From assembly GCA_028697145.1 (NCBI GenBank), contig JAQVFR010000004.1:65390-129389 (forward strand): a stretch of 64,000 bases of DNA. The letters are read 5' to 3'. Shown here one piece after another: positions 15,746 through 31,510 of the stretch (positions within the stretch are counted from its first letter, which is position 1; each line of letters opens with the position of its first letter). The notes under the pieces are model-generated. The model was not told the origin of the DNA and searched no databases. It was given only the letters and a program-made list of their open reading frames with translations. The translations under genes and the position numbers were made by a program. Source of the DNA: Actinomycetota bacterium. GTDB taxonomy: Bacteria; Actinomycetota; Geothermincolia; Geothermincolales; RBG-13-55-18.

Positions 15746-15758
15746 ATTTACCTCCTGT

Positions 15759-16190: not shown

Positions 16191-16199
16191 CACTTTCAC

Positions 16200-17690
16200 T
16201 TATTCGTACCTGTCGATGAGGTCGGCGCAGATGATGCCGGAGCCGATGACCACCGGGACGCCGCCCCCGGGATGGGTGGAGTTCCCCGCCAGGTATAGCC
16301 CCTTGATGCTCTTGGATCTGGCCGCGGGACGGAAGGTCGCCGACTGGGTGAGGTCCAGCTCCAGGTCGTAGATGGCTCCCCCCGGATAGAGCAAGCGCCT
16401 TTCAAAATCGTAGGGAGTGAGCAGCTCCGCCACCTGGACATGGTCCGCCAACCCTGGTATCACCTTGTCGAAAAACGCGATCGCCCTCTCCTTGCAGGGT
16501 TCCTTCTCTTTGTCCCAGTCCGTTCCCCGCAGGTCGTACGGGCCTTCCATGACGATGTTCAGGGTGTGCTTGCCCTCCGGTGCCATGGCAGGGTCCGAGA
16601 GGGTGGTCCAGCATATGAGCCCCAGCTTATCGTCGTGGAGGATCCCGTTCTCGGTCTCCTTGTTCTTCTCGTTCATGACCTCCATGGGCGCGGCCATGGC
16701 GCTGAAATGGGCATCAAGAGGAGGACCGTAATCCAATCCCAGGTTGAGCATGCAGTCCGAGTGGGAAAGCTTATAACTCTTGATGCCATAGCGGGCGAGC
16801 CAGGGCAGGTGCTCCTCCCCGATCATATCCAGGTACAGCTGCCTGGCATTGACGTTGGAGACGACCAGGTCGGAGGTGATCTCGGTGCCGTCATCCAGCA
16901 CCACGCCCCGAGCGCGCCTGTCTTCCACCAGCACCTTCTTAACCAGCGTGTCCGTGCGCACCTCCATGCCGTGCTTCTCGCCCAGCCTCCGGAAGGCTTC
17001 TGGTATCTGCATCATGCCTCCCCGGGGGTAGAACATGCCCAGGTGCTCGGCATATACCAGCATGGCGAAGATGCCCGAGGTCCTCTCGGGCGGGAGGCCC
17101 ATATAGCAGGCCTGGTACCCGGTTATCTGCTGCACTTTCTCGTCGCTGAAGAACTTCCTGACGACGTCCTCGTAGTTACCGCCGAAGAGGGGCAGGTACT
17201 TGAGGATGCGCGGGCGCGCGGCGAACATCTTGAGCAGGTCCGTCATGGTGTTGGCGGGGTTGACGAAAAAGGAGTCGATGACCTGGTCGTAGAAATCGCC
17301 GAAATACTCGACGAACCTGCGCCAGTTCGCGGTCTCCCCGGGGGCGATCCTCTCGACCACCTCTGCCGCTCCATCAAAGGAGAGGGGAACGCTCAACCTG
17401 GAGCCGTCCTGGAAGACGAAGCTGTAGATGGGATCGCATGACACCAGTTCCACTTCATCCTGGAGGGTAGTGCCCAGCATACGGAAAGCCATCTCGATAG
17501 GCTCCATGACCTCCACGATACAGGCGCCGATATCGAAGGTGAAGCCGTCCTTCTCGTAGCTGGCACAGGCTCCGCCTATCCGGTCGCTCTGCTCCAGCAC
17601 CAGCACTCTGCGCCCCTGTCTTGAAAGAATGGAGCCTGAGGTGAGGCCCCCCAACCCCGCCCCGATGATGATGACGTCGTAATCGGCCAT
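16200..17690 (-). CDS. CrtI-like FAD oxidoreductase 2
   Basis: 496 residues, same architecture as gene 1: VIIIGAGLGGLTSGSIL at the N-terminus, LVLEQSDRIGGACASYE, and the C-terminal GLYLAGNSTHPGGGVPVVIGSGII. Unlike its paralogues it has GGACASY rather than GGCCSTY in the FAD-binding region, so the Cys pair seen in the others is absent. ATG 17690 follows GGGGGAGATTTC. Downstream lies a REP-like copy and the vestige of a lost paralogue; upstream lies small membrane protein copy 2. The reaction is unknown beyond FAD-dependent chemistry on a probably hydrophobic substrate. Confidence 0.87.
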   Translation of the reverse strand: MADYDVIIIGAGLGGLTSGSILSRQGRRVLVLEQSDRIGGACASYEKDGFTFDIGACIVEVMEPIEMAFRMLGTTLQDEVELVSCDPIYSFVFQDGSRLSVPLSFDGAAEVVERIAPGETANWRRFVEYFGDFYDQVIDSFFVNPANTMTDLLKMFAARPRILKYLPLFGGNYEDVVRKFFSDEKVQQITGYQACYMGLPPERTSGIFAMLVYAEHLGMFYPRGGMMQIPEAFRRLGEKHGMEVRTDTLVKKVLVEDRRARGVVLDDGTEITSDLVVSNVNARQLYLDMIGEEHLPWLARYGIKSYKLSHSDCMLNLGLDYGPPLDAHFSAMAAPMEVMNEKNKETENGILHDDKLGLICWTTLSDPAMAPEGKHTLNIVMEGPYDLRGTDWDKEKEPCKERAIAFFDKVIPGLADHVQVAELLTPYDFERRLLYPGGAIYDLELDLTQSATFRPAARSKSIKGLYLAGNSTHPGGGVPVVIGSGIICADLIDRYE

Positions 17691-17759
17691 GAAATCTCCC
17701 CCTCACTGAGACTCGCCATCGCTACGTACAGCTGTAAATCCCACTCCTCCTCCACCTAT

Positions 17760-17799
17760 GGGGTCTTGTTTTTTGTTACCCCCAGGGGTATCAAACAGT
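17760..17799. repeat. REP-like repeat, partial copy 3
   Basis: GGGGTCTTGTTTTTTGTTACCCCCAGGGGTATCAAA matches the left arm and central hairpin of the element at 21423, but the right arm is missing and TCAGG is deleted from the left arm. Confidence 0.6.
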
Positions 17800-17858
17800 G
17801 GCCCCCGAAGCCGGCAGGCCCGAGGCTGTGCAGAAACGGGGCCCGACCCTCAGGCACG

Positions 17859-18044
17859 TCAAGCGTAATAGCGGCCCGGGAGATACGGGGCCTGCTTGGC
17901 CAGGTGGATGATGAAACGCTTCTTAGACTCGTCCAACTGCGTGAACTTGAAGGCCAGTCCCGCCACCAGCGTCAGCAGGATAAGTGGCTTGAGCGCCTTC
18001 ACCATGCCGCCTTTCTTCGTCTCGGGTTCTTCGTTTCTGGACAT
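17859..18044 (-). CDS. 61-residue single-helix membrane protein, copy 2
   Basis: Near-identical to the protein at 15560 (differences at residues 2, 5 and 60). It has the same helix and the same PYLPGRYYA tail. DNA similarity extends over the whole gene and its leader, with several third-position changes, so selection on the protein is likely. It lies between CrtI-like genes 2 and 3, which suggests that a unit of small gene plus CrtI gene was duplicated. Confidence 0.7.
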   Translation of the reverse strand: MSRNEEPETKKGGMVKALKPLILLTLVAGLAFKFTQLDESKKRFIIHLAKQAPYLPGRYYA

Positions 18045-18057
18045 ATTTACCTCCTGT

Positions 18058-18073
18058 CACGATGTTGATCGTG
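18058..18073. promoter_or_regulatory. Inverted repeat CACGAT-N4-ATCGTG before small protein copy 2
   Basis: Identical in sequence and position to the repeat at 15759, so it was duplicated with the gene. Operator or leader hairpin function is inferred. Confidence 0.45.
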
Positions 18074-18075
18074 CG

Positions 18076-18128
18076 AACACACCTCTCCGGGCGTCGCAAT
18101 CGCTTTCGCGATGCATGCTGTCGAAACG
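18076..18128. repeat. Structured intergenic repeat, partial copy
   Basis: CTCCGGGCGTCGCAATCGCTTTCGCGATGCATGCTGTCGAAACG matches the distal half of the repeat at 19724-19828. On the minus strand it includes ATCGC-GAAA-GCGAT, a hairpin with a GNRA tetraloop. It abuts the stop codon of CrtI-like gene 3. Confidence 0.6.
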
Positions 18129-19625
18129 TTATTCATATTTCGAGACCAGGTCGGAGGCGATTATGCCCGAACCTATCACCAGAGGCACTCCACCGCCGGG
18201 GTGGGTGGAAGCGCCGGCCAGGTAGAGCCCCCCGATGCTCTTGGACTTGGAACGGGGGCGGAATACGGTCTGGGCTACCAGGTCCTCCTGCAGCCCGTAT
18301 ATAGCGCCGCCGGGGTGCAGCAGCCGCCGCTCGTAGTCGAAGGGGGTTATCAGCTCGGCCACCTTGACATGGTCCGACAGCCCCGGGACAGCCTTGCGTG
18401 CGAGATACGCGATGGAATCCTCCAGAAAACGCTCTTTTTCCTTGTCCCAATCGCTTCCGGCCAGGGAATAGGGGGCCATGAAGATGACGTTGATGGCATG
18501 GCACCCCTCCGGGGCCAGGGAGGGATCGGACTTCGTCGCCCAGCACACCAGGCCGAACTGCTCTTTGGGCAGCAGGCCTTTATCCAGCCGGTTCCACCAG
18601 TAATCGTTCATCTCCTCGTAGGGGGCCGTGATCATAGTGTGATGGGCGTCAAGGGGCGGCTCGTAATCGACGCCCAGGCAGACCATGGCCGCGGAGATGG
18701 AGGGCTCGTAGCTCTTGATGCCGAAGCGGGCCAGGGGGTGCAGGTGCTCCTCGCCTACGAGTTCCAGGTAGAGGGTCTTGGCGTTGATGTTGGATACGAC
18801 CACCGGCGCCGTGATCTCCGTGCCGTCATCCAGGACCACCCCCTGCACGCGGCGGTCGTGTACCATCACCTTCTTCACCCGCGATTTCAGGCGCACCTCC
18901 ATGCCGTTCATCTCGCCGCAGCGGGCAAGCGCCTCGGGGATGGACCCCATGCCTCCCCGCGGATACCACACACCCTCGTGCTCGAGATAGGCGAGAAGGG
19001 CAAAGATACCCAGCGCGAGCTCGGGAGGCAGGCCCACGTACCAGGTCTGGAAGGACATGGTCTCCTGGACCTTCGAGCTCTTGAAGTACTTGCGCAGGAT
19101 GTCCTGGTAGGAACTGGTGAACAGCTCGTTATGCTTCAGCAACCCCGGGCTCGCGCGGAGGATCCTGGCGAAGTCCCCGAAGCTGTTTGCGGGGCTGGTG
19201 AAGAACCCTTTCTTCGTCTCCGCGTGGATCTCCGCATTGAACTCGGCGAAAGCGCTGAAGTTCTTACCATCCTGCTCGGATAACTTCGACAACGCTTCGA
19301 CCGTCCCTTGCACGGAGAACGGGATCTTCAGGCGCGTGTCATCCCTCAGAACGCAGCTGTACACGGGGTCGCAGGGGATGAGATCCACCTCCTTCTGAAA
19401 GGTGGTCCCCAGCCTCAGGAAAGCGTTTTCGATGCTGTCGATGGCCTCTACGATGGAGGCACCGGCGTCGAACTTGAACCCTTCCTTCTCGAAGGTGGAG
19501 CAGCAACCTCCTATGAGGTCGCTCTGCTCCAGCACCAGCACCTTGCGCCCTTCCCTGGCAAGGATAGCCCCGGCCGAGACCCCGCCTCCTCCCGCCCCGA
19601 TGACGATGACGTCGTAGTCACTCAT
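18129..19625 (-). CDS. CrtI-like FAD oxidoreductase 3
   Basis: 498 residues from ATG 19625, which follows GGAGGGAAGA; the track start (19799) runs into the tandem repeat and is not credible. The Rossmann motif is VIVIGAGGGGVSAG, then LVLEQSDLIGGCCSTFE, with the C-terminal GLYLAGASTHPGGGVPLVIGSGII. It has the same length and domain order as genes 1, 2 and 4. Genes 3 and 4 share the C-terminal variant GASTHPGGG, while 1 and 2 have GNSTHPGGG, pointing to two sub-pairs. It lies in the leftward series downstream of gene 4. Confidence 0.88.
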   Translation of the reverse strand: MSDYDVIVIGAGGGGVSAGAILAREGRKVLVLEQSDLIGGCCSTFEKEGFKFDAGASIVEAIDSIENAFLRLGTTFQKEVDLIPCDPVYSCVLRDDTRLKIPFSVQGTVEALSKLSEQDGKNFSAFAEFNAEIHAETKKGFFTSPANSFGDFARILRASPGLLKHNELFTSSYQDILRKYFKSSKVQETMSFQTWYVGLPPELALGIFALLAYLEHEGVWYPRGGMGSIPEALARCGEMNGMEVRLKSRVKKVMVHDRRVQGVVLDDGTEITAPVVVSNINAKTLYLELVGEEHLHPLARFGIKSYEPSISAAMVCLGVDYEPPLDAHHTMITAPYEEMNDYWWNRLDKGLLPKEQFGLVCWATKSDPSLAPEGCHAINVIFMAPYSLAGSDWDKEKERFLEDSIAYLARKAVPGLSDHVKVAELITPFDYERRLLHPGGAIYGLQEDLVAQTVFRPRSKSKSIGGLYLAGASTHPGGGVPLVIGSGIIASDLVSKYE

Positions 19626-19642
19626 TCTTCCCTCCTTAGATG

Positions 19643-19828
19643 CGTACACGTGCCAGGCCTGCACATTCGGAAACGTCCAGGCGCTGGACACTGTTGCGCC
19701 GCCCTCCGGGCATACTATCGAAACGTACACGTGCCAGGCCTGCACATTCGGAAACGTCCAGGCGCTGGACACTGTTGCGCCGCCCTCCGGGCATCGCAAT
19801 CGCTTTCGCGATGCATACTGTCGAAACG
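19643..19828. repeat. Tandem structured repeat, 81-base period
   Basis: A 71-base block starting CGTACACGTGCCAGGCCTGC and ending CCCTCCGGGCAT occurs identically at 19643-19713 and 19724-19794; the second copy continues with CGCAATCGCTTTCGCGATGC. On the minus strand it folds into GTCCAG-cgc-CTGGAC, GCCC-gga-GGGC and ATCGC-GAAA-GCGAT. Related copies lie at 16045, 18076, 25210 and 25331, all just 3' of minus-strand genes in this locus. Confidence 0.75.
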
Positions 19829-21325
19829 TTATTCATAGGTGGAGACCAGGTCGGAGGCGATGATGCCCGAGGCGATCACCGACGGCAGCCCGCCGCCCGG
19901 GTGGGTGGAGGCGCCGGCGAGGTAGAGTCCCTTTATGCTCTTGGACCTGGCCGCCGGCCTGAACACCGCGGAGGAGGGAAGGTCCATGTCCAGCCCCAGG
20001 ATGGCGCCCTCCGGGGTCAGGAGGCGCCGTTCATAGTCACGGGGCGTCAGGACGTCCATCACCTCGACGTGGTCGGCCAACCCCGGAATGGCCTTCTCGC
20101 TCAGCAGTTCGAGCTGCCGCTCACCGTACGCTTTCTTATCCCGGTCCCAGTCTATCTCCTTGACGTTATAGGGGCCCGACTGGACGATGTTGAGCACGTG
20201 GTGTCCCTCGGGGGCCATGGATGGGTCCGAGAAGGTCGGGAAGCACACCAGGCCGTATGTATCCGAGGGGAGTTTGCCCTGCCGCATGCCCCCGAACCAG
20301 TACTCGTTTATCTTGTCCATGGAATCCGTGACGATGGTATGGTGGGCGTCCAGCGGCGGCCTGTAGTCGAGACCCACGTTTATCATGGGGGCGGAAGCCG
20401 ACAGGCGGTAGCTCTTCATTCCGTACCTGGCCAGCCAGGGAAGGTGCTCTTCCCCGATCTTCTCGAGGTACAGCCTCTTGGCGTTGATGTTGGAAATCAC
20501 AACCTTCGCGGTTATCTCAGTCCCGTCCGCGAGGATCACGCCCTCGACCCCGCGGTCGCGAACCATCACCTTGCTTACCTCCTGGCTCATTCGTACCTCC
20601 AGCCCGTACCTCTCGCCGCAACGGCGCAAAGCCTCGGGGACGGCGATCATGCCGCCACGGGGGAACCACACCCCCTCGTGCTCCGCGTAGGAGAGGAAGG
20701 CGAAGATGCCGGGGGCCAGGGCGGGTGGCTGGCCGCAGAACTTCCCCGGGTAGGACAGGGAATCCTGCACCCTTTCGTTCTTGAAGTACTTGCGCATGAC
20801 ATCCTCGAAAGAGCTGGTGAATAGGGGGAGGAACTTCAGCAGGTGAGGGTCCTTGAGCATGACCTTGGTCATGTCCACCATGTTGTTCACGGGACTGAGG
20901 AAGAACCCGTTCACGGCGGTGCGCATGAAATCGCCGATGTAGCTCGCGTATTCCAGCCAGGCTTTGCCGTCCTCAGGGGAGATGCGCGAGATGATCTCCG
21001 CCTTCTCCTCTATGGAGGCGGGGTAGGTCATGCGCGACCCGTCAGGGAAGATGACGCTGAACACGGGGTCGCAGGGCTCGAGCTCCACCTCCTCCTGGAA
21101 GGTTGTGCCAAGTCTCTCGAAGGCGCGCTCGAAGGGGGTTATGATCTCCAGGATAGTGGCGCCCACGTCGAAACGGTAGCCGCTGCGTTCGTAGGTCGAG
21201 CAACATCCCCCTATCTTGTCGCTTTGTTCCAGCACAAGTGTCTTGCGCCCTTCTCTGGCAAGCAAGGCCGCTGCGGTGATGCCGCCGCATCCCGCCCCGA
21301 TGACGATAACGTCGTAGTCAGGCAT
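19829..21325 (-). CDS. CrtI-like FAD oxidoreductase 4
   Basis: 498 residues: VIVIGAGCGGITAAALL, LVLEQSDKIGGCCSTYE, and the C-terminal GLYLAGASTHPGGGLPSVIASGII. It differs from the other three in the central region (VNGFFLSPVNNMVDMTKVML; GKFCGQPPALAPG) and may have a different substrate range. It is the first of the four stand-alone paralogues in transcription order, separated from the upstream fusion gene by a complete REP-like repeat (21423). Family-level function only: FAD-dependent (de)saturation or isomerisation. Confidence 0.88.
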   Translation of the reverse strand: MPDYDVIVIGAGCGGITAAALLAREGRKTLVLEQSDKIGGCCSTYERSGYRFDVGATILEIITPFERAFERLGTTFQEEVELEPCDPVFSVIFPDGSRMTYPASIEEKAEIISRISPEDGKAWLEYASYIGDFMRTAVNGFFLSPVNNMVDMTKVMLKDPHLLKFLPLFTSSFEDVMRKYFKNERVQDSLSYPGKFCGQPPALAPGIFAFLSYAEHEGVWFPRGGMIAVPEALRRCGERYGLEVRMSQEVSKVMVRDRGVEGVILADGTEITAKVVISNINAKRLYLEKIGEEHLPWLARYGMKSYRLSASAPMINVGLDYRPPLDAHHTIVTDSMDKINEYWFGGMRQGKLPSDTYGLVCFPTFSDPSMAPEGHHVLNIVQSGPYNVKEIDWDRDKKAYGERQLELLSEKAIPGLADHVEVMDVLTPRDYERRLLTPEGAILGLDMDLPSSAVFRPAARSKSIKGLYLAGASTHPGGGLPSVIASGIIASDLVSTYE

Positions 21326-21422
21326 GATACTACCCCCTTGTTAGTATCCCTGCGTACACGTGTAAGACCCAGACGCTCGAGATCCCTGTCAGCCATCAGG
21401 CCAATGTTTCGAAAAAATAAAT

Positions 21423-21519
21423 GGGGTCAGGTCTTGTTTTTTGTTACCCCTGGGGGTATCAAAATCGCAGCTCAATGACGAGCAAATAACAGTCCAGGCA
21501 AAAAACAAGACCTGACCCC
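21423..21519. repeat. REP-like inverted repeat, copy 4 (complete)
   Basis: GGGGTCAGGTCTTGTTTTTTG and its exact inverse CAAAAAACAAGACCTGACCCC enclose TACCCCTGGGGGTA. It lies between CrtI-like gene 4 and the fusion gene, and ends 11 bases past the fusion stop codon. Repeats of this type are commonly mobilised by RAYT (Y1-type) transposases; none is encoded here. Confidence 0.75.
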
Positions 21520-21529
21520 TATCTTTCCT

Positions 21530-24175
21530 CTATATGCGGATGCGGAGGTTGGAGAGCGGGAAGCTCATGCAGGGGTGGATGTAGCCCGCGACCGCGTCCA
21601 CCTCGCGCTTGAGCACCCTCTCCGGCACGAAGACCTTCCCCTCTATAAGACGGGTGCGGCATACGCTGCACTCCCCCGCCCGGCACACGGCCTCCACCAC
21701 GATGCCCGCCCGCTCCAGCGAGTTCATGAGCGGCTCGCCCGCCCTGGCCTCGATGGTCTTGCCCGTGCGCTCTTCCGTCACCGCGAACACCGCGTCGGGA
21801 TCCGCGCCGGGCCAGCCCGCCTCGGTGGTGATGTCCGCGGGCGGTCCGTAGGCCTCCCTGCGTATCCTCCGCCGGGCTACCCCCAGTGACTCCAGTGCCC
21901 CCTCGCAGAGCACGTACATCTGGGCCGGGCCGCAGAGGTAGAAGGTCTTGCCCTCCACTCCGTCCACGAGCTTCGAGATCATCTCCGCGTCCAGCAGGCC
22001 GCAGGGCCCGCTCCACCCCTCGATGGCCTCGGAGATGACGTAGTCCACCTTGAGGTTGGGCAGCTTTCCCTCAAACCGCTTCAATTCTTCCCCGAAGATG
22101 ATGTCCGCGGGGTCCTTGCTGCCGTAGATGAGATGCATCTTTGGCCCCTCGCCCTTCCCGGCCGCCTCGCGGATGATGGACGCGAAGGGGGTGATGCCCG
22201 AGCCTCCGGCCAGGAAGACCAGTTCGCCGGTGTCCATGAGGGGCTCGTAGTAGAAGCTGCCGAAGGGCCCCGTGGACTCGAACCTGTCCCCCGCCTTCAC
22301 CTCGTCCAGGAGATAGCTCGAGACGAAACCGTCCGCCATGCGGCGCACGGTGATGTCCCAGAAGCCCGCGCCGGGGGCGGAGGCGATGGAGTAGGGGCGC
22401 GAGGTCAGCACGCCGCCCACCTCGCAGAAGAGGTTGACGTACTGTCCCGCCCTGAACCAGGGCAGCTCGCCCTCCGCGGCCTTCATGCGCAGGGTCTTGG
22501 TGGTGGCCGTCTCCTCGATGATCTCGGACACCTCCAGTTGGACGCGGTCGGGATGGAGGCCGGCCAGGGCCCTTTCCACCCGCGTGGTCGGGCTGTCCGG
22601 CAACTCGACGCCCTCCATCTGCTTCTCCAGGTTCGCCTTGAGCTTGCTCATGGCATCGGGCTGGGGACCACCGGCCTCCATATCCTGCAGTACCTTGCGC
22701 GCAGTGAGGAAACCGGAGTAGAGCGAGGGCTCGTAACCGCCGCCGATGTTCACCCAGGCGCCCGAGAAATACAATCCCTCGATGGGGCCTTCGGCGGGCA
22801 TACGCACCAGCCCAGTCCCCGCGAAGGTCTCGTCGAAACCGATGATGCTGCCGCCGACGTTGCGTGAGTAACGGATGTTGGTGAGCGGCGTGGCCACCTC
22901 GATGACCTCGATGTGGTCGCGCAGGCCGTGCGCTACGTTATCCGCCAGGTCGAGGGCCCTCTCCGCCACGCGGTGCTTGGCGTCCGCGTACTCGGAGGGC
23001 TTGAGTTTCATCCACGGCTCGCTGAAGGCGATGAAGGTGCACACCAGCGACGACGTGCCGGGTGGCGAGAAGCTCGGGTCCACCGAATTGTATGCGGTGA
23101 CCGCGATGTCCGACGGCTCCAGCGATACCCCAGCCTTCATGTTCTTCCAGTTGCCGTCCACGTCGTAGCCGTCGCTGTAGAAGGTCTCGTGGTGCCCCAG
23201 CCCCAGCTCCTGGTGGGGGCAGTCCACGCCCAGGTAGAGGTTGACGGTGGAGGCGCCGCCCGACCACGCCCCCAGGCGCTTGAGGTACCAGTCGGGGGTG
23301 TTCTCCCTGCCGATCAGCTCGAGGCAGGTGACGTAGGGATTGGCGTTGCTGACCACGGTGGGGCAGAGTATCTCCGTGCCGTCCTGGGCCTCCACGCCCC
23401 TCACCTTTCCTCCCTCGGTGAGGATACGCTTCGCGCCGTTGCGAAGCCACACCTCGCCTCCCATGTCCTCGATGGAATCGACGAATGCCTGCGAGAGGGC
23501 CTGGCTCTTTCCCTTGACGTGCCAGGGTCCGAAGCGAAGGTAGCTCACCGTGCCCAGGGCATAGGTCAGGAAGGACAGCGAGGACGGGTTGTTGCAGTAA
23601 TAGCCGCAGATGACATTGAGCACGGTGCGCGCCCTCTCGTCCTTGATGAACAGGTCCATGACCTCCTGCAGGCTCTTGCCGAAGTAGGCGAGCAGGGTCG
23701 GGAATTCCTCCTGGTGCTCCATGACCATCTTCATGCCCACGCGGTTGGCGCGAAGCGCCTCCTGGGCGTACTTGAACATGACGTCCGTGAAGTCCCTGAT
23801 GCCATCGGCGTCGGCGGGGAAATACTCCGCCATGGCACTCTCGAAGTTCTCGCGGCCGATGGGGACTACGAAATCGACATCGGGAAGCACGCAGCGGTAG
23901 AACTCCGGGATGCGCAGGAACTCCACCCTCCGCCTTACGTCCACCGCGTCGAGCAGCTTCCACAACGGCCCCGGGTTCTTCTCGTCGCCCAGCCCCGACA
24001 GCTCGTGCAGGGAGATCTCGAACTCGAAGCGTCCCCGCAGGAAGGATGAGGCGTAGCCGCCGGGCACGTAGTGCCTCTCCAGCAGCAGTACCTTCTTGCC
24101 TTCCTTGGCCAGGTTGGCCGCCGAAGAGAGCCCTCCCAGTCCGGCCCCGATGACCACAACGTCGTAATCTTTCAT
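21530..24175 (-). CDS. CrtI-like oxidoreductase fused to ferredoxin reductase and 2Fe-2S domain
   Basis: 881 residues in three modules. Residues 1-505 are CrtI-like: VVVIGAGLGGLSSAANLAKE, LLLERHYVPGGYASSF, and the C-terminal GLYFSGAWVNIGGGYEPSLYSG. Residues 530-790 are a ferredoxin-NADP-reductase-type module with the FAD motif RPYSIASAP and the nucleotide motif FLAGGSGITPF. Residues 795-881 are a plant-type 2Fe-2S domain with CRAGECSVC and a distal Cys in YIHPC. The ribosome site GGAGGGATCATTGCC precedes the ATG. The fusion would let NAD(P)H electrons pass through FAD and 2Fe-2S to or from the CrtI flavin (inference), which fits a reductive saturase or redox-driven isomerase. It follows the FabK-like gene by 25 bases, so the two are probably co-transcribed. 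Confidence 0.88.
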   Translation of the reverse strand: MKDYDVVVIGAGLGGLSSAANLAKEGKKVLLLERHYVPGGYASSFLRGRFEFEISLHELSGLGDEKNPGPLWKLLDAVDVRRRVEFLRIPEFYRCVLPDVDFVVPIGRENFESAMAEYFPADADGIRDFTDVMFKYAQEALRANRVGMKMVMEHQEEFPTLLAYFGKSLQEVMDLFIKDERARTVLNVICGYYCNNPSSLSFLTYALGTVSYLRFGPWHVKGKSQALSQAFVDSIEDMGGEVWLRNGAKRILTEGGKVRGVEAQDGTEILCPTVVSNANPYVTCLELIGRENTPDWYLKRLGAWSGGASTVNLYLGVDCPHQELGLGHHETFYSDGYDVDGNWKNMKAGVSLEPSDIAVTAYNSVDPSFSPPGTSSLVCTFIAFSEPWMKLKPSEYADAKHRVAERALDLADNVAHGLRDHIEVIEVATPLTNIRYSRNVGGSIIGFDETFAGTGLVRMPAEGPIEGLYFSGAWVNIGGGYEPSLYSGFLTARKVLQDMEAGGPQPDAMSKLKANLEKQMEGVELPDSPTTRVERALAGLHPDRVQLEVSEIIEETATTKTLRMKAAEGELPWFRAGQYVNLFCEVGGVLTSRPYSIASAPGAGFWDITVRRMADGFVSSYLLDEVKAGDRFESTGPFGSFYYEPLMDTGELVFLAGGSGITPFASIIREAAGKGEGPKMHLIYGSKDPADIIFGEELKRFEGKLPNLKVDYVISEAIEGWSGPCGLLDAEMISKLVDGVEGKTFYLCGPAQMYVLCEGALESLGVARRRIRREAYGPPADITTEAGWPGADPDAVFAVTEERTGKTIEARAGEPLMNSLERAGIVVEAVCRAGECSVCRTRLIEGKVFVPERVLKREVDAVAGYIHPCMSFPLSNLRIRI

Positions 24176-24200: not shown

Positions 24201-25172
24201 TTACACCCGATCAGCCGAGGCCAGGCGCCTCGCTATCGCCTCCGCCTCCGCGACCATCTCGGTTAAAACTTCCCTTACCGTCTTTATATCGTGGATGATC
24301 CCCACGCTCTGGCTGCAGGCCAGTACCCCCAGGTCCACTTCGCCCCGCTCCAGCATGCTGCGGGTATTCGAGCCGGCGACGATGGCCAGGATGTCCTGGA
24401 AATCCGCACCGGCGCTCTCCAGCTCAGCCGCCTTCTCGGCGGCCTGGTTCCTGATCACGCGGATGGTGTTGTGCACCGACCCCAGCAGGGGCACGGTGTC
24501 CGTCTCCGCCGCCGTGAGCAGGTTTTCCTTGACCAGCCCGCTGATGGGGCATTCGCGCGTCATGAGAAGCCTGGTCCCAAGGAGGACCGCCTCCGCTCCC
24601 AGACTGAACGCGGCGAGCATGCCCCTTCCGTCCGCGATCCCGCCGGCGGCGATGACCGGGACGTCCAGGACGTCCACCGCGCGGGGCACCAGGGACAAGG
24701 TGGAGACATCGCCGATGTGTCCTCCCCCCTCGTAGCCGAACAGGGTCACCGCATCCACCCCCGCCTTCTGGGCGCTTAGGGCATGCCTGACATTCACGCA
24801 CTTGTGCATGAGCTTAAGCCCCCCGCCCTTGAGCATGGCGACGATGTCCTCGGGAGGGCGGTGGCCGCTCGTCTCCACGGCGGCTACCCCGCCCTCCTCC
24901 AGGATGACTTCGGCGTAGAGCCGGTTGTCGATAGGCCGCAGGGCCGGGAAGAGGTTGAGATTGACGGCGAAGGATCTGTCGGTGAGACCCTTCAACCTGC
25001 GCAGGGCCGCCCGGAACTCCTCCTGGGTCGGGAACATGGCCGAAGACATGATGCCCAGGGCACCCGCGTTGCTGACCGCCGCCGTGAACTCGGGGCCGGT
25101 GATCCATTGCATGCACCCGCCGAGCACGGGGTACTCGATACCGAAGAGCTCGGTTATACGGGTCCTGAACAT
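24201..25172 (-). CDS. FabK/nitronate monooxygenase-family flavoprotein
   Basis: 323 residues from ATG 25172, which follows AAGGAGCGGC; the track start is 13 codons too early. It is a TIM-barrel FMN enzyme: GIEYPVLGGCMQWITGPEFTAAVSNAGALG at the start is typical of the family, and the FMN phosphate site is VIAAGGIADGRGMLAAFSLGAEAVLLGTR. It contains GYEGGGHIGD, a version of the family's GxEAGGH loop. Members are either enoyl-ACP reductases (FabK) or nitronate monooxygenases. Beside acyl-CoA and CrtI genes an enoyl-thioester reductase role is plausible. It is co-directional with the fusion gene 25 bases downstream. Confidence 0.85.
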   Translation of the reverse strand: MFRTRITELFGIEYPVLGGCMQWITGPEFTAAVSNAGALGIMSSAMFPTQEEFRAALRRLKGLTDRSFAVNLNLFPALRPIDNRLYAEVILEEGGVAAVETSGHRPPEDIVAMLKGGGLKLMHKCVNVRHALSAQKAGVDAVTLFGYEGGGHIGDVSTLSLVPRAVDVLDVPVIAAGGIADGRGMLAAFSLGAEAVLLGTRLLMTRECPISGLVKENLLTAAETDTVPLLGSVHNTIRVIRNQAAEKAAELESAGADFQDILAIVAGSNTRSMLERGEVDLGVLACSQSVGIIHDIKTVREVLTEMVAEAEAIARRLASADRV

Positions 25173-25209
25173 GCCGCTCCTTATTTCATCCAGAGGCCGC
25201 TCTCCGGCC

Positions 25210-25312
25210 ATACTATCGATACGTACGCTTGCCGGGCCTGGACATTCGGAAATGTCCTAGGCGCTGGACACTGTTGCGCCGAAGACGGCGCAATCGCTTT
25301 CGCGATACATGC
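25210..25312. repeat. Structured intergenic repeat, diverged copy
   Basis: Contains CCTGGACATTCGGAAATGTCCTAGGCGCTGGACACTGTTGCGCCG and CGCAATCGCTTTCGCGATACATGCTGTC, a diverged version of the element at 19643. It lies between the ECH and FabK-like genes. Confidence 0.6.
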
Positions 25313-25432: not shown

Positions 25433-26206
25433 CTACTCTTTCTTTCCGGTGCGTTTTTCGAAGAACTTGTCCACTGCCTCCTTGTGCTCGGGAGTGATAA
25501 CCGCCAGCGACTGCGCGTACGCCTCCAGGTCCAGGAAGGTCTGGAGGTCCACCTGGTGGCCGGTGTTGAGCCAGCGCTTGGTCATGGCGAGGATATTGGC
25601 GGGGCGGCGAGCCAGCTTCCTGGCCAGTTTCATGACCTCGTCCGATATCTGCTCGTGCGGGACCACGCGGTTGATGAGCCCGATGCGCAGGGCCTCCTCC
25701 GCCTCGACGATGGCCGCCGTCAGGGCCAGCTCCTTGGCGATGGACAGCCCGACCCTCCGGGTCAGGAAGTAGGCGGAGCCGAAGTCGGGCAGTATGGAGA
25801 TACGCGTCCAGCTGAGGAAGAAGCGCGCTCTCTCCGTTGCGTAGGTGATGTCGGCGGCCATGGCCATGCCGAAGCCGCCTCCCACGGCCCAGCCGTCCAC
25901 CTCTGCGATCACCGGCTTGGGCCCCTCGTGCATCTCGTAGATGAACGCGCCCATCGCGCGCATGCCCTCGCAGAGGAGGCTGGGGTCCATCTTGTCGCCC
26001 ATGGTGGTCAGGTCCGCGCCGGCGGAGAAGTTCCCCTCGGCTCCCCGCAGGACGATGACCTTTACCTCCTCGTTATCCAGGACGGACCTCAGGCCCTCCA
26101 TCAGCGGGGGGAGCAACACGTTACCCAAGGCGTTCATGTTGGGCCCGTGCATGGTACAACGGGCGACACCGTCCTCCAGCTCGATCTTGAAGTTCTCGGA
26201 TTCCAT
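25433..26206 (-). CDS. Enoyl-CoA hydratase/isomerase family protein
   Basis: 257 residues from ATG 26206 (GAGGAAGG upstream). Crotonase fold: the first oxyanion-hole segment is LRGAEGNFSAGADLTTMG and the second is IAEVDGWAVGGGFGMAMAADI. The usual catalytic Glu pair is not evident: the segment after the second oxyanion loop reads ERARFFLSWTRISILPDFGSAYFLTRRVG, with Asp where hydratases often have Glu. The reaction may therefore be hydration, isomerisation or another crotonase chemistry. It follows the DUF35/thiolase genes in the same direction, consistent with a beta-oxidation-like module. Confidence 0.85.
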   Translation of the reverse strand: MESENFKIELEDGVARCTMHGPNMNALGNVLLPPLMEGLRSVLDNEEVKVIVLRGAEGNFSAGADLTTMGDKMDPSLLCEGMRAMGAFIYEMHEGPKPVIAEVDGWAVGGGFGMAMAADITYATERARFFLSWTRISILPDFGSAYFLTRRVGLSIAKELALTAAIVEAEEALRIGLINRVVPHEQISDEVMKLARKLARRPANILAMTKRWLNTGHQVDLQTFLDLEAYAQSLAVITPEHKEAVDKFFEKRTGKKE

Positions 26207-26291
26207 GCACATCACCCTTCCTCACTCCAGGCCCGACGGATCGGGCATATGACGGTTCCTCCCCCGCCCCTTCCTGGCCCCTCGCCTACTA

Positions 26292-26759
26292 TCAGATCAG
26301 CTCGAAGTGCTTGATGTCCAGCAGGCTTCCCGTGCGTTGTTCCTCGAAGACCGCCTTGACCCTGGCCCCGATCTTGATCTTCGCCGGGTCGGTCTCGTTG
26401 ACGTAGTGCAACAGCACGGTGTCCGATCCGTCCAGCATGATGGCCGCGTAGCCGTAGGGCACAGCCTTCTGTGCGCCGGTGGCGGGATCCACGAAACCGA
26501 AGCTGACCACGGTGAAGGTGATCAGTTCCCCTTCGTCCGAGACCGGCACCAGTTCGGTGAGCTCCTCGAAACACGGCCCGCACACCCTGCGCGGGGGGAC
26601 GTACACCTTGCCGCACTTGGGGCATTTCACGCCCACGAACTTCTTGTTGTCCCGCAGTTCGGTGAGGAACTTGGATCCGTATACTCCCGCCGTCCAGTTG
26701 AACGGCTGCGCCATCTCTCCGCTCTCCAGCGTGATGAGGTCTTTCTTCTCCTCGGCCAT
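26292..26759 (-). CDS. DUF35 OB-fold/zinc-ribbon protein 1, thiolase partner
   Basis: 155 residues from ATG 26759 (GGGGGTGA upstream). The 488-residue track ORF runs through the thiolase gene in another frame and its first two-thirds are a shadow. A rubredoxin-like zinc ribbon has two Cys pairs (CPKCGK and CGPC), followed by an OB fold (ELITFTVVSFGF, AVPYGYAAIMLDGSDTVLLHYV). DUF35 proteins form complexes with thiolase-fold enzymes and bind the CoA end of the substrate, as in steroid side-chain aldolases and archaeal HMG-CoA synthase complexes. It lies 5 bases downstream of thiolase-fold gene 1, its likely partner. Confidence 0.88.
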   Translation of the reverse strand: MAEEKKDLITLESGEMAQPFNWTAGVYGSKFLTELRDNKKFVGVKCPKCGKVYVPPRRVCGPCFEELTELVPVSDEGELITFTVVSFGFVDPATGAQKAVPYGYAAIMLDGSDTVLLHYVNETDPAKIKIGARVKAVFEEQRTGSLLDIKHFELI

Positions 26760-26764
26760 ATCTA

Positions 26765-27955
26765 TCACCCCCTGGCCTTTTCCGGCTTTTCCTTGCCCAG
26801 GACCAGTATGTCGGACCAGAAACAGCCTCCGAACCCGGTGGCCAGGGCCAGCTTCACGTCGGGCACCTGGCGGTCCTCCGCTCGTCCCTGGATCTGCCAG
26901 GCGGCCTCCGCCACCCTTATTATCGCAGTAGCTCCGATGGCGTTGGAGGACATCACGCCGCCCGAGGGATTCACCGGGCATTTGCCGCCCATGTCGAAGG
27001 TGCCGGCGCGGGTGAGCGCGGGCGCCTCGCCCTTGCCGCAGAATCCCAGGGACTCCATGTAGCGCAGCCCGGCGAAGGAGTACGGCAGGTACAGCTCGGC
27101 CACGTCGAACTGCTCGAGGGGATCGGTGATGCCCACCCTGTCGTACACGTCCCGCGCGGATTTCTGCATGGCCGGGAACCAGGCCTCGCCGGTCTTGAAG
27201 TCCAGGTAGGGATCGCTGGTGTACGCCCAGAGGTGGCGGTCGGCCACGCCGAGGACCCATGCCGGTTTGATGGGGAAATCGTCCGCCACGTCCTCGGAGG
27301 CGAAGACGAGCGCGCAGGCCCCGTCGGTGCGCGGGCACATGTCCCCCATCTTCACGGGCCACGACAGGTAGGGGGAGTTCATTACGTCCTCGATGGTCAT
27401 GTTGAGATGCAGATGGGCGTAGGGGTTGTTGAGGGCGTGCTTGCGCTCCCGCACCGCCACGTATGCCGCGTCCTCCTCGGTGGCGCCGGTAGCGTGCATG
27501 TAGGCGGTGGCCTCCAGGGCCAGACCCGCCACCGCGCCCGCGAAGATGGGGCGGTCCCAGAAGGGGTCGAAGGCGGTGATGATGGCGCCGGTGGTGTCGG
27601 ACTCGGAGTTTTTCTCCCAGCCGATGGCCAGCACGCGGTCGAACAGCCCGGAGGCCACGTGATAGTAGGCGGCCATGGCGATGGTGGAGCCGGTGGTGCC
27701 GCCGGTGGTCAGCTTCATGATCGGCTTCATCAGGGCTCCGCTTCCGTCCACCGACCACGTATCCACGTAGTTAACGCCCTCGAAATGGTCCATGTTCCCG
27801 ATGACCACGGCGTCGATGTCCTTGCGGGTCATGCCCGCGTCAGCCAAGGCCATGCGCACCGCCTCGTTTATCAGTTCCTGCCCGGTGACGTCGGGGCGGG
27901 CGGAACGCTGACGGGTCATGCCCACGCCGGTTACGGCAACTCGCTTGCCCATCAC
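26765..27955 (-). CDS. Thiolase-fold protein 1 (SCP2-thiolase-like)
   Basis: 396 residues. The fold is clear from the N-terminal VAVTGVGMTRQ and the C-terminal CPVNPSGGVMSSNAIGATA. The nucleophile position, normally Cys in an N-C-S-T-G context, reads TTGGTTGSTIAM, with Gly in place of Cys. The GHPxGA His motif reads SNAIGA. Both classical thiolase residues are therefore missing, as in thiolase-fold retro-aldolases such as Ltp2, which also pair with DUF35 proteins. An aldolase or non-classical C-C cleavage is a better guess than thiolysis. Its start overlaps the end-adjacent thiolase 2 gene by 4 bases (ATGA). Confidence 0.87.
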   Translation of the reverse strand: MMGKRVAVTGVGMTRQRSARPDVTGQELINEAVRMALADAGMTRKDIDAVVIGNMDHFEGVNYVDTWSVDGSGALMKPIMKLTTGGTTGSTIAMAAYYHVASGLFDRVLAIGWEKNSESDTTGAIITAFDPFWDRPIFAGAVAGLALEATAYMHATGATEEDAAYVAVRERKHALNNPYAHLHLNMTIEDVMNSPYLSWPVKMGDMCPRTDGACALVFASEDVADDFPIKPAWVLGVADRHLWAYTSDPYLDFKTGEAWFPAMQKSARDVYDRVGITDPLEQFDVAELYLPYSFAGLRYMESLGFCGKGEAPALTRAGTFDMGGKCPVNPSGGVMSSNAIGATAIIRVAEAAWQIQGRAEDRQVPDVKLALATGFGGCFWSDILVLGKEKPEKARG

Positions 27956-29097
27956 TTCTCACCTCCCAGTACCCACACGCAGTGGGATTGCCCGCAAGGG
28001 CCGTTGATACCATGTGCCAGCGCGGTCTTCACCCCGTCCACCTGGTGCTCGCCTGCGTCGCCCCTTATCTGCAGGGCGCACTCGATCATACGGTTGAGCC
28101 CGGCGGCCAGCACCGGGTTCCCCGAGAGGCATCCCCCCGAGACGTTCACAGGCAGCTCGCCGGCGGCGGCCGTCTTTCCGGATTCCGTGAGCTTGCCGCC
28201 CCCACCCTGTTCGCAGAATCCCAGGCCCTCAAGCCACAAGGGCTCCATGTAGGTGAAGGCGTCGTACAACTCGACCAGGTCTATCTCCTTCGCGGGGTCC
28301 TTTATGCCAGCCATGGAGTATGCCTTCTTCGCCGCTTCCTCCAGGGCGCTTACGTCATGGAGTTCGTGGTCCCCCAGGTGATAAGCCGTGCTGCAGTGGG
28401 CCACACCCTTCGCCCATACCGGCTTGTCCGTTATCTTCTTCGCCCTCTCCTCCGTAGCCAGGATGATGGCCGAGGCGCCGTCGGAGATGGGGCAGCAGTC
28501 CAGCAGCTTGATGGGATCCGCGATATACGGCGAGGACATGACCTTCTCCACCGTCAGCTCCAGGGGGAGTTGGGCGACAGGGTTCTTGAAGGCGTTGCCG
28601 TGGTTCTTCACGGAGACTAGGGCACATTGCTCCTCTGAAATGCCATATTTTGTCATATATGCCCTTGCCTGCAGCGCGGACGAGGTGATGGCCTCGATCC
28701 CCAGCATCCTGGCGTAGATGGGGTCGAACATGGCGTTTGTGATCAGGGGCATCTGGCTCTCCGAGCCCTTGTGGTGCGCGCACACAAGCGTGGTGCCGTA
28801 GCTCCCCGAAAGGACGCGCATGAGCCCGAAGAACGCGCCGAAGGTCCCGTCCCCCTCAACCGTGGTGACGTTCTTGTCGTAGGAGCCGCAGGCGTCCATG
28901 ATGGCCATGGAAGAGATGGTGCGCCCGTCGAAGAAGTCGTTGGACACGGTGACCACGTTGTCTATCTGGTCGATGGACATGCCCGCGTCGTCCAGGGCGG
29001 CGCGCGTGGCCTCGTAGACCAGGTCAGCGTATCCGTCCGCCTTCCTCTCCCGCTCGATGCGTGTCATAGCCGCACCGACGATGGCTACCGCTTCCAT
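27952..29097 (-). CDS. Thiolase-fold protein 2 (SCP2-thiolase-like)
   Basis: 381 residues, starting AIVGAAMTRIERERKADGY. The nucleophile region reads TVEGDGTFGAFFGLM, with no Cys, and the C-terminal motif is VNVSGGCLSGNPVLAAG, with Asn in place of the usual His. It is therefore likely non-thiolytic, like its neighbour. The two proteins are clear but distant paralogues and could form a heteromer, with each DUF35 partner encoded at the outer flank of the pair. The stop of DUF35 gene 2 (29098-29100) directly abuts this start codon. Confidence 0.87.
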   Translation of the reverse strand: MEAVAIVGAAMTRIERERKADGYADLVYEATRAALDDAGMSIDQIDNVVTVSNDFFDGRTISSMAIMDACGSYDKNVTTVEGDGTFGAFFGLMRVLSGSYGTTLVCAHHKGSESQMPLITNAMFDPIYARMLGIEAITSSALQARAYMTKYGISEEQCALVSVKNHGNAFKNPVAQLPLELTVEKVMSSPYIADPIKLLDCCPISDGASAIILATEERAKKITDKPVWAKGVAHCSTAYHLGDHELHDVSALEEAAKKAYSMAGIKDPAKEIDLVELYDAFTYMEPLWLEGLGFCEQGGGGKLTESGKTAAAGELPVNVSGGCLSGNPVLAAGLNRMIECALQIRGDAGEHQVDGVKTALAHGINGPCGQSHCVWVLGGEK

Positions 29098-29571
29098 CTA
29101 CTCCACCCCCTTCACCGGGCGGAAAAACTTGACATCGAGGATGTTGCCCTCCCTCTTGTCGGAGAAGACCGCCTCCACGCTGTCTCCAACCTTCAGCTCT
29201 TTGTCGTCGAACTCTCCGAGAAGATGCAGAAAACCCGTGTCCGCCCCCTCCAGCCTGATGATGCCGTAACCGTAGGGCACCGGCAGGGGAGACAGTTGGG
29301 GGTGCTGTCTTCTCACTATGGTGTAGGACTCCAGGGTGCCGGAGGAGCCCAGCTCGACCCACTGCGAGCATTCTTCGAAGCATTCGGGACAGTGACGCCG
29401 CGGGATATGATACACCTTCTCGCACCCGGGGCAGCGGGTACCCAGGAACACGCCTTTATCGCGCAGCGACTCAAGGTAACGTGTGCCCACCTCCCCGGCG
29501 AACCAGCGGTAGGGCACCTTGATGCGGCCCTCCATCACCAGCACTTCCTGGTCCTTTCTCCAGTCTTCCAT
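29098..29571 (-). CDS. DUF35 OB-fold/zinc-ribbon protein 2, thiolase partner
   Basis: 157 residues starting MEDWRKDQ at ATG 29571; GGGGAGGG sits 9 bases before this codon. The zinc ribbon has two Cys pairs (CPGCEK and CPEC), and the OB fold has PVPYGYGIIRLEG and GDSVEAVF. It abuts thiolase-fold gene 2. The arrangement DUF35-thiolase-thiolase-DUF35 makes a symmetric four-gene block, a strong sign that the products work as a complex or as two paired enzymes. Confidence 0.88.
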   Translation of the reverse strand: MEDWRKDQEVLVMEGRIKVPYRWFAGEVGTRYLESLRDKGVFLGTRCPGCEKVYHIPRRHCPECFEECSQWVELGSSGTLESYTIVRRQHPQLSPLPVPYGYGIIRLEGADTGFLHLLGEFDDKELKVGDSVEAVFSDKREGNILDVKFFRPVKGVE

Positions 29572-29765: not shown

Positions 29766-30338
29766 TCATCTCTTCTCGCAACCCTTGAGGATGAGGTCGT
29801 AGAACACCGCCGCGATCTCGTCGGCGCTGGCCTGTCCGTCCGCCCGGTACCAGTCGAAGAGCCAGTTGCACATGCCGGAGATGGCGCGCACCACCATGGG
29901 CACGTCCATTTCCCGGAACTTGCCCTCCTCTATGCCCTGGTTCAGCAGTTCGCGGTAGAGTGCCTCGAACTCCCGGCTCATGGAACGGATGAACTTGCGC
30001 TTGTCATCCTGCAGCTCGCTCTCCTCGGCGAGGTAGACGGTGGTGACGTCGCCATGCTCGGAGAACATGCTCACGTGCCACGCGATAAGGCGGTGCAGCT
30101 TCTCCTCGGTCTCGCCGGGTTCGGCGACGATGCGCCTCACCCCCTCCATGAGACGCTCGATGGCCGACTCGCAGATGGCATAGAGCAGGTCGTGCTTGGT
30201 CTTGATGTAATAGTAGAGGGCGGGCTTGGTCACGTTGAGCTCCGAGGCGATGTCGTCCATGGTCGTGGCGCGGTAGCCCTTGCTGCGGAAGAGGCGGGCC
30301 GACACCGCGATTATCTCGTCCCAACGCGATTTGTTCAT
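29766..30338 (-). CDS. TetR-family transcriptional regulator 1
   Basis: 190 residues from ATG 30338 (GGGGAGGAGCC upstream); the longer track ORF is a shadow of the acyl-CoA dehydrogenase. The N-terminal HTH reads RATTMDDIASELNVTKPALYYYI, and the C-terminal half is the helical ligand domain seen in fatty-acid regulators (MFSEHGDVTTVYLAEESEL). It sits 17 bases downstream of the acyl-CoA dehydrogenase gene, so it is probably autoregulated through the operon promoter, where a palindrome is present (31625). An acyl-CoA ligand is likely by family analogy. Confidence 0.9.
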   Translation of the reverse strand: MNKSRWDEIIAVSARLFRSKGYRATTMDDIASELNVTKPALYYYIKTKHDLLYAICESAIERLMEGVRRIVAEPGETEEKLHRLIAWHVSMFSEHGDVTTVYLAEESELQDDKRKFIRSMSREFEALYRELLNQGIEEGKFREMDVPMVVRAISGMCNWLFDWYRADGQASADEIAAVFYDLILKGCEKR

Positions 30339-30355: not shown

Positions 30356-31510
30356 TCAATACAGGCCCATGGTGGTGGCGATGATCTCCCGCATGATCTC
30401 GTCGGTGCCGCCGCCGATGCGCGCTATACGCATGTCCCTCCATGCCTTCTGCGCCGGGTACTCCATCATGTAGCCGTAACCGCCCATGATCTGCAGGGCC
30501 TCGTCGGTGACCCTGAAGGCAACATCGGTGCTCATGAGCTTGGCCATGGTGATCTCCTTCACCGGGTACTCGCCCTTGTCGTATTTCCATGCCGTGAGGT
30601 AGGTGAGGGACTTGGCCGCCTCGAGCTCGGTGGCGAGGTCGGCCACGCGATGGGCGATGGCCTGGTTCTTGATGATGGGCTTTCCGAACTGCACCCTCTC
30701 CCTGCCGTAGTCGATGGCTTCCTGCAGCGTCACCTCGGCAATGGCTATGACCGCGACGGCCACGATGAGCCGCTCGCCCTGCAGCTCCCACATGATGTTG
30801 TAGAAACCGCGGCCCTCCTCCCCCATCATGGAATCCTCGGGTATGATCATGTCCTCGAAGAAGATCTCGGCGGTGTCGCTGGACCACTGGCCGACCTTGT
30901 CGAGCTTGCGCGACTTGACGAAGCCCGGCGTGTCGCAGTCCACCAGGAACATGCTCATCCCCTTGTAGCCCTTCTGCTCCTTATCGGTGCGGGCGAGCAG
31001 GGTCATGAAGTCTGCTCTCCAGCCGTTGGTGATGAATGTCTTGTTGCCGTTGACCTTCCAGCCGCCTTTGACCTTCTCCGCATAGGTCTTGACGGCCGCG
31101 ACGTCCGAGCCGGCCTCCGGCTCGGTGATGCCCAGGCAGGCTATCCTGTCTCCCTGTATGGCAGGCACCAGGTAAGCCTGCTTCTGCTCCTCGCTGCCGA
31201 ACTTGAGGATGGGCGGCGTGGCCATGCCGACCTGCACCGCCACCCCGGTGTTCACGCCGAAGGACCCGCACTTCGCCAGCTCCTCCATGAGCACGATGTT
31301 GGTGAAATAATCCCCGGCGCCGCCTCCGTACTCCTCGGGGAAATGCAGGCCCAGGTAGCCGAGTTCACCCAGTCGTTTGAAGACCGAGTTGGGGAAGAAA
31401 CCCTCCTCCTCCCAGGCGTCGGCATTGGGCATGAGTTCCCGTTCTACGAACTCCCTCACGCTCTGCCGGAGCATATCGTGTTCTTGGGTGAAAAATAGGT
31501 CGCCAGCCAT
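30356..31510 (-). CDS. Acyl-CoA dehydrogenase
   Basis: 384 residues with the full FAD-dependent fold: ACLGITEPEAGSDVAAV (signature 1) and QIMGGYGYMMEYPAQKAWRDMRI (signature 2). The usual catalytic Glu before GTxEI is replaced (RIGGGTDEI), but Glu is present in WELQGERLI, the position used by isovaleryl-CoA and long-chain dehydrogenases. A branched or bulky acyl-CoA substrate is therefore likely. It needs an electron-transfer flavoprotein, which is not in the window. It is the first gene of the leftward lipid series. Confidence 0.93.
   Translation of the reverse strand: MAGDLFFTQEHDMLRQSVREFVERELMPNADAWEEEGFFPNSVFKRLGELGYLGLHFPEEYGGGAGDYFTNIVLMEELAKCGSFGVNTGVAVQVGMATPPILKFGSEEQKQAYLVPAIQGDRIACLGITEPEAGSDVAAVKTYAEKVKGGWKVNGNKTFITNGWRADFMTLLARTDKEQKGYKGMSMFLVDCDTPGFVKSRKLDKVGQWSSDTAEIFFEDMIIPEDSMMGEEGRGFYNIMWELQGERLIVAVAVIAIAEVTLQEAIDYGRERVQFGKPIIKNQAIAHRVADLATELEAAKSLTYLTAWKYDKGEYPVKEITMAKLMSTDVAFRVTDEALQIMGGYGYMMEYPAQKAWRDMRIARIGGGTDEIMREIIATTMGLY

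Follow-up and report, generated by a model that had tools for sequence, protein, structure and literature searches.

A Cys-less thiolase pair with two DUF35 proteins in an uncultured actinobacterium: a distant relative of mycobacterial Ltp3/Ltp4 and a candidate heteromeric retro-aldolase

Ltp3 and Ltp4 are known from steroid degradation and have been described as a heteromeric aldol-lyase that removes the C24 branches of sterol side chains (PMC6593523, PMC6678751, citing Wilbrink 2012). In the published scheme for C24-branched sterols, a carboxylation takes place before the Ltp3/Ltp4 step (PMC6678751). The chemistry of the pair is not worked out in the literature covered, and the better-studied aldolases, Ltp2 and Sal, are not its close relatives. 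In TcLtp2, Tyr294 is the base and Tyr344 the acid; in CtSal, where the nucleophile is replaced by Gly, the catalytic residues are Tyr302 and Cys304, and Sal and DUF35 assemble as alpha-beta-beta-alpha (PMC12329534). In this study, a stretch of 64,000 nucleotides (the window; contig C13, positions 65390-129389, G000:C13:65390-129389) from an uncultured actinobacterium that probably avoids oxygen was analyzed. On its minus strand, at 26292-29571, two thiolase-like proteins, T1 (thiolase 1) and T2 (thiolase 2), are encoded between two DUF35 proteins. Judged from the sequences, it is reasonably probable that this block specifies one heteromeric thiolase-fold aldolase that cleaves 3-hydroxyacyl-CoA by retro-aldol chemistry.

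The block and its active-site residues

The four genes were closely packed in the transcription order DUF35, T2, T1, DUF35, and the ATG of T1 at 27952 overlapped the stop of T2 by 1 nucleotide (nt). All the open reading frames were intact. Pfam identified Thiolase_N and Thiolase_C_1 in both T1 and T2, and OB_ChsH2_C and zf-ChsH2 in both small proteins:

29098..29571, minus strand: DUF35 protein (zinc ribbon and OB fold) adjoining T2; zf-ChsH2 1.8e-8, OB_ChsH2_C 2.3e-12, CxxC...CxxC retained
27952..29097, minus strand: T2, Cys-less thiolase-fold subunit on the Ltp4 side; Pfam, alignment, tree and AlphaFold2 (AF2) model
26765..27952, minus strand: T1, Cys-less thiolase-fold subunit on the Ltp3 side, likely catalytic; Pfam, NCBIfam, alignment, tree and AF2 model
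26292..26759, minus strand: DUF35 protein (zinc ribbon and OB fold) adjoining T1; OB_ChsH2_C 9.5e-14, zf-ChsH2 5e-8

T1 and T2 were aligned with solved thiolases and aldolases, and Tyr294 and Tyr344 of TcLtp2 were located in the alignment through the 6ok1 sequence. The nucleophile column, which is Cys in the SCP2, archaeal and BbsB thiolases, was Gly in both proteins (G85 in KLTTGGTTGST of T1 and G84 in TVEGDGTFGA of T2), and the His of the GHP motif was replaced by Asn (N337 and N327, respectively). Judged by the Cys nucleophile and the GHP His, neither protein belongs to the SCP2 or archaeal thiolases. The Tyr of the Ltp2/Sal motif YDHF/YDCY was kept as Y288 (YLPY) in T1 and Y278 (YDAF) in T2. 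Further residues noted were T372 in T1, and D83 (preceding G84), H362 and C368 in T2. A preliminary description of this DNA had proposed a DUF35-thiolase-thiolase-DUF35 block in which both thiolases lack the Cys nucleophile and carry Asn for the GHP His, and the present coordinates, domains and alignment agree with it on each of these points. It had also taken the loss of Cys and His together with a DUF35 partner as the mark of retro-aldolases. These features do not suffice for that assignment; the invariant Tyr that T1 carries where Ltp2 has Tyr294 and Sal has Tyr302, a residue which that description had left aside, is the better indication.

The conservation of these residues was evaluated on a set assembled from a scan of 84,980 species genomes, which yielded 80 loci, and from related genomes; the collecting patterns leave out these columns but favour sequences of the T1 family itself. 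For the 118 T1 homologues, Gly was found at the nucleophile in 116/116 readable rows, and all 118 had Tyr at the TcLtp2 Tyr294 column and Asn in place of the GHP His. For the T2 homologues (n = 110), the nucleophile column contained Gly in 86 rows, Ala in 21, Ser in 2 and Cys in 1; the Tyr294 column contained Tyr in 43, His in 45, Ser in 18 and Phe in 3; and the GHP column contained Asn in 65 and His in 38. Asp or Glu stood just before the nucleophile position in 109 of the 110 T2 rows, and most rows had a bulky residue at nucleophile +2, where thiolases carry a small one. This pattern of conservation suggests that T1 is likely the catalytic subunit and that the T2 site is relaxed.

The same DUF35-T2-T1-DUF35 block was present four times in this genome, on contigs C13 (the window), C25, C50 and C38, and the paralogous proteins shared 39-59% (T1) and 38-61% (T2) identity with those of the window. 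Because the nucleophile loss recurs in the three paralogous blocks and in the homologues, it is not due to chance. A frameshift or sequencing artefact was ruled out by the four agreeing blocks and the 118 homologues. Elsewhere in the genome, two single thiolase and DUF35 pairs were observed on contigs C45 and C49 (L012 7268-9023; L013 7462-9133); their thiolases have Gly for Cys, yet retain His in one or both motifs.

Relation to Ltp3/Ltp4 and other thiolase-fold enzymes

In a tree of 86 proteins, built by a quick method with support from the Shimodaira-Hasegawa-like approximate likelihood ratio test (SH-aLRT) only, the T1 set with Ltp3 (mycobacterial loci L095 and L068) was set off by a branch with a support of 100, and a branch with a support of 99 set off the T2 set with Ltp4. 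Ltp2, Sal and the SCP2, BbsB and archaeal thiolases grouped together, apart from T1 and T2, and 4u4e also grouped apart from both. Membership of the Ltp2/Sal clade was ruled out by the tree and by the missing second catalytic residue. The nearest NCBIfam model for T1 was PRK08313. In the mycobacterial locus, a double-DUF35 gene is followed by a 353-residue and then a 393-residue thiolase-like protein; the second thiolase belongs to PRK08313 (758.6 bits) and the counterpart of T2 to PRK07937, a lipid-transfer protein model. The neighbouring genes are presumably FadD19, EchA19, CYP125 and KshA, as read from their sequences. The published gene order is ltp3, ltp4 ... echA19, fadD19 (PMC6593523), and because the locus agrees with this order, its thiolase pair was taken as Ltp4 and Ltp3. 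Accordingly placed by sequence comparison, the nearest known relatives of T1 and T2 are mycobacterial Ltp3 and Ltp4, respectively, and not Ltp2, and the block is a distant, mostly anaerobic-lineage variant of Ltp3/Ltp4.

The two systems have an adjacent gene pair with two DUF35 domains per pair, Gly or Ala at the nucleophile, the NxSGG...N loops and the Tyr in T1/Ltp3 in common. They differ in that the identity is about 41% for T1 and 28% for T2, that the DUF35 proteins of the window are separate with full zinc ribbons while the mycobacterial ones are fused, and that the window block lies in an anaerobic-type gene setting. For the Rieske protein of L095 that was read as KshA, no homologue was matched in the window's genome, which is a weak negative; the idea of a classical steroid degrader was dropped on this basis.

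Compared with Ltp2-ChsH2 (6ok1), the block possesses the thiolase fold, the DUF35 partner and the Tyr base position, and likewise has no Cys nucleophile. However, it has two thiolase-fold proteins instead of one, falls in a separate clade, and lacks the Tyr344 acid and the His of YDHF; the Tyr344/GHP loop contains Asn in T1 and T2. The bile acid aldolase Sal-Shy (9myr) resembles the block in the Gly at the nucleophile, the catalytic Tyr and the DUF35 partner. It differs in its Cys304 acid, since the corresponding +2 position is Pro in T1 and Ala in T2, in its C3H1 ribbon in place of the four-Cys ribbon of the block DUF35 proteins, and in having a single kind of thiolase-fold subunit. Cys-bearing thiolases with DUF35-type partners are among the closest structural folds to T1 and T2, but they still carry the nucleophilic Cys as well as the HDAF/HDCF and GHP His residues. 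The thiolase-like protein ST0096 from Sulfolobus tokodaii (4yzo) also lacks the Cys (Ser at the column), but it has His in both motifs and lies outside the T1 and T2 clades.

The AF2 models were all of monomers. The T1 model had a mean predicted local distance difference test (pLDDT) score of 88.0 and template modelling (TM) scores of 0.90 to the archaeal complex 6et9 and 0.83 to Ltp2 6ok1. The T2 model had a mean pLDDT of 93.9, and its best Foldseek match was 6et9 with a TM of 0.94; the TM to 6ok1 was 0.83-0.85 across the T1 and T2 models. Both proteins are thus confidently predicted to adopt thiolase folds. Judged by the genes present and by the complexes already known (6ok1, 9myr, 7pxp and 6esq), T1 and T2 would form a thiolase-fold heterodimer with one DUF35 protein on each, and this alpha-beta-beta'-alpha' arrangement would be a variant of the assemblies seen in Ltp2-ChsH2 and Sal-Shy.

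Family distribution and gene neighbourhood

The family was present in 40 of the 59 related genomes searched, and it ranged over Geothermincolia, Desulfobacterota, Spirochaetota and Lokiarchaeota, with related pairs in mycobacteria. The T2-T1 pairing was kept in nearly all loci of sufficient length (locus L044 was without a separate T2). The DUF35 proteins were placed as a flanking pair, after the pair (Lokiarchaeota) or fused upstream (actinobacteria), so that a T2-T1 pair with two DUF35s, fused in mycobacteria, is maintained from Lokiarchaeota to mycobacteria. Tandem T2/T1 blocks were observed in Desulfobacterota and Spirochaetota (L025, L028, L029, L031, L038), and the second set of these contained long DUF35 proteins of about 395-510 residues.

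The neighbours of the block in the window, and their recurrence in loci of the window type, were as follows:

25433..26215, minus strand: enoyl-CoA hydratase family protein, candidate pathway hydratase; Pfam; in 14/16 window-type loci
30356..31510, minus strand: acyl-CoA dehydrogenase, candidate first step; Pfam; in 8/16 window-type loci
29766..30338, minus strand: TetR-family regulator (TetR_C_24); Pfam; in 14/19 window-type loci by neighbour clustering
24201..25211, minus strand: nitronate monooxygenase/FabK-like flavoprotein, conserved neighbour; Pfam and NCBIfam; in 11/16 window-type loci
21530..24175, minus strand: fusion of a CrtI-like flavin adenine dinucleotide (FAD) oxidoreductase, a ferredoxin-NAD(P)H reductase and [2Fe-2S] domains, conserved neighbour; Pfam; CrtI in 12/16 window-type loci

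The aldehyde:ferredoxin oxidoreductase (AOR) was found within 10 kb of T1 seven times, at the C25-type block of seven family genomes, against 1.36 expected at random, and the beta-keto acid cleavage enzyme (BKACE) three times against 0.46 expected, both in 12 family genomes whose loci are orthologous and not independent. Among the 21 loci of the C25 type, 7 had AOR, 6 an iron alcohol dehydrogenase and 12 CoA ligases. BKACE genes occurred near the block in 5/16 window-type, 9/23 Delta/Spirochaete and 4/6 Asgard loci; examples in Desulfobacterota, Lokiarchaeota and Geothermincolia are L021 2564-3529, L046 7663-8562, L048 5864-6763, L147, L150, L153, L160 and L161. Hydratase, CrtI-like, ferredoxin-reductase-like and BKACE genes lay around the Lokiarchaeal blocks, with AOR also at two of them; the CrtI and reductase genes adjoining these blocks are separate, as they are in L021. 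Several Delta/Spirochaete loci contained paired acyl-CoA dehydrogenases and paired MaoC hydratases. AOR together with an iron alcohol dehydrogenase adjoined blocks in Geothermincolia and Lokiarchaeota (L009 5163-7067; L046 15276-17123), and this recurrence suggests a pathway common to both domains. AOR fits an aldehyde product, and BKACE fits a beta-keto acid product. A gene for 3-hydroxyacyl-CoA dehydrogenase was found in 0/16 window-type, 0/6 Asgard and 1/23 other loci in the stretches read, some of which were short. The biotin carboxyltransferase PF01039 had no match in the window's genome, compared with matches in 9/14 control genomes, and for this reason a route through a biotin carboxylase, after the pattern of the sterol scheme, was rejected as unsupported in this genome.

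Adjoining the block, five tandem CrtI-like genes (phytoene desaturase family) occupied 13919-24175 of the minus strand. Four of the five shared repeated 300-nt stretches with 67-80% identity, and the last was the fusion to ferredoxin reductase and [2Fe-2S] listed above. The array looks like a local amplification. Intergenic repeats were located at 19643-19794, 18092, 19792 and 25286: a 71-nt unit occurred twice in tandem without any difference between the copies, and a 43-nt element recurred at four sites, which lie between CrtI-like genes and around 25.3 kb. A 3-hydroxy-3-methylglutaryl-CoA (HMG-CoA)-synthase-like protein with a fused DUF35 adjoined a Cys-bearing archaeal-type thiolase (L010 2711-5384) some 4 kb upstream of the C50 block; the two may give this actinobacterium an archaeal-type entry into the mevalonate pathway.

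Proposed reaction and its alternatives

Retro-aldol catalysis calls for three elements: a base that acts on the beta-hydroxyl, an oxyanion hole, and an acid. In the proposed route, a branched acyl-CoA would be desaturated by the acyl-CoA dehydrogenase, and water would be added by the hydratase. Tyr288 of T1, the equivalent of TcLtp2 Tyr294 and CtSal Tyr302, would then remove the proton of the beta-hydroxyl. Cleavage of the C-C bond would follow; the Gly-rich loop, perhaps together with the invariant Asn337, would hold the enolate, and an acid would protonate it. The products would be an acyl-CoA and an aldehyde or ketone, with no Cys nucleophile and no thiolysis. T2, as an Ltp4-type partner, may serve assembly, substrate shape or CoA binding. 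Several observations argue for retro-aldol cleavage: the Gly at the nucleophile and the aldolase-base Tyr are invariant in T1; T1 and T2 group with Ltp3 and Ltp4, aldol-lyases in the literature; window-type blocks repeatedly have acyl-CoA dehydrogenase and hydratase genes as neighbours; AOR adjoins C25-type and two Lokiarchaeal blocks; and the 3-hydroxyacyl-CoA dehydrogenase needed for thiolysis is rarely near the blocks. The preliminary description had suggested that a branched acyl-CoA may be cleaved in this way after the manner of Ltp2, with acyl-CoA dehydrogenase and hydratase genes beside the block. Both genes are there (30356-31510 and 25433-26215) and recur in orthologous loci, and retro-aldol cleavage of a branched or hindered acyl-CoA remains the best-supported reaction class; Ltp2 as the model had to give way to Ltp3/Ltp4, which are nearer in the tree.

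Some results weigh against this assignment. The second catalytic residue of the known aldolases, Ltp2 Tyr344 or Sal Cys304, is absent from T1 and T2, and the mechanism therefore cannot be copied from either enzyme. The window proteins scored below the curated cut-offs of PRK08313 (Ltp3; 357.9 of 514 bits) and PRK07937 (Ltp4; 175 of 419), which the mycobacterial proteins pass. As far as the literature was read, the basis of the Ltp3/Ltp4 assignment is genetic rather than enzymological. In addition, 3-hydroxyacyl-CoA dehydrogenase occurred in 9/21 C25-type loci, and the retro-aldol scheme does not account for BKACE at 18/45 of the window-type, Delta/Spirochaete and Asgard loci.

The BKACE genes near window-type, Delta/Spirochaete and Asgard blocks could be accommodated if the enzyme were HMG-CoA-lyase-like, converting 3-hydroxy-3-alkylglutaryl-CoA into acetyl-CoA and a beta-keto acid, from which BKACE would then produce an acyl-CoA and acetoacetate. 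The carboxylation preceding Ltp3/Ltp4 in the sterol scheme points the same way, but the carboxylation that would probably be needed finds no PF01039 match in the own genome, whose BKACE genes do not adjoin the block, and this route is very improbable. Aldol chemistry in the synthetic direction, or a decarboxylase, for modified isoprenoid or polyketide-like lipids is unlikely as well. CrtI-like genes do adjoin the block, the HMG-CoA synthase/thiolase pair sits a few kb away from the C50 block, and Cys-less thiolase-fold proteins can act as weak decarboxylases of malonyl-CoA, as in the case of TbSLP (cited in PMC12329534); however, the neighbours are mostly of catabolic types (acyl-CoA dehydrogenases, CoA ligases, hydratases and AOR), and CtSal was without malonyl-CoA decarboxylase activity (PMC12329534).

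A Claisen-type or acyl-transfer enzyme with another nucleophile, for example T2 Cys368 or T1 Cys377, is quite improbable. The preliminary description had raised the case of a Cys supplied from elsewhere in the active site, and a candidate does exist: C368, in the C-terminal Gly-rich loop near the fold's active site, is Cys in 85% of T2, while C377 is Cys in 37% of T1. Yet neither is universal, and both are missing from the mycobacterial Ltp3/Ltp4 of L095. C368 is unlikely to be an essential nucleophile because its equivalent is absent from some mycobacterial Ltp4 proteins. T1 C206 is universal in T1 but was ruled out as a hidden nucleophile, as it is an ancestral Cys also found in Ltp2 and the SCP2 thiolases. 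Most blocks are also without a nearby 3-hydroxyacyl-CoA dehydrogenase, which speaks against a Claisen-type or acyl-transfer enzyme. That T1 and T2 bind CoA or lipid without catalysis and resemble thiolases in their fold alone is hardly credible. The canonical catalytic set is lost in both and their relatives are annotated as lipid-transfer proteins, but Tyr288, Asn337 and the Gly loops of T1 are strictly conserved across very distant taxa, and aldolase activity has been reported for the Cys-less relatives Ltp2 and Sal (PMC12329534).

Returning to the heteromeric retro-aldolase, we tentatively suggest, with considerable doubt, that it may be a third catalytic solution for thiolase-fold retro-aldol cleavage: an obligate heteromer that joins an active subunit, in which Tyr288, Asn337 and the Gly loop are strictly conserved, to a relaxed partner and uses neither Tyr344 nor Cys304. 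Geothermincolia, Desulfobacterota, Spirochaetota and Lokiarchaeota might share it as part of a route that handles branched acyl-CoAs, possibly isoprenoid ones, without oxygen and that is connected with AOR, BKACE and CrtI-like oxidoreductases. One genome of an uncultured actinobacterial class thus encodes the Ltp3/Ltp4-like pair with two DUF35 proteins in four copies, and groups rich in anaerobes, Lokiarchaeota among them, have it too. Should the pair be an aldolase, it would represent a widespread way to dismantle branched acyl-CoAs without 3-ketoacyl thiolysis.

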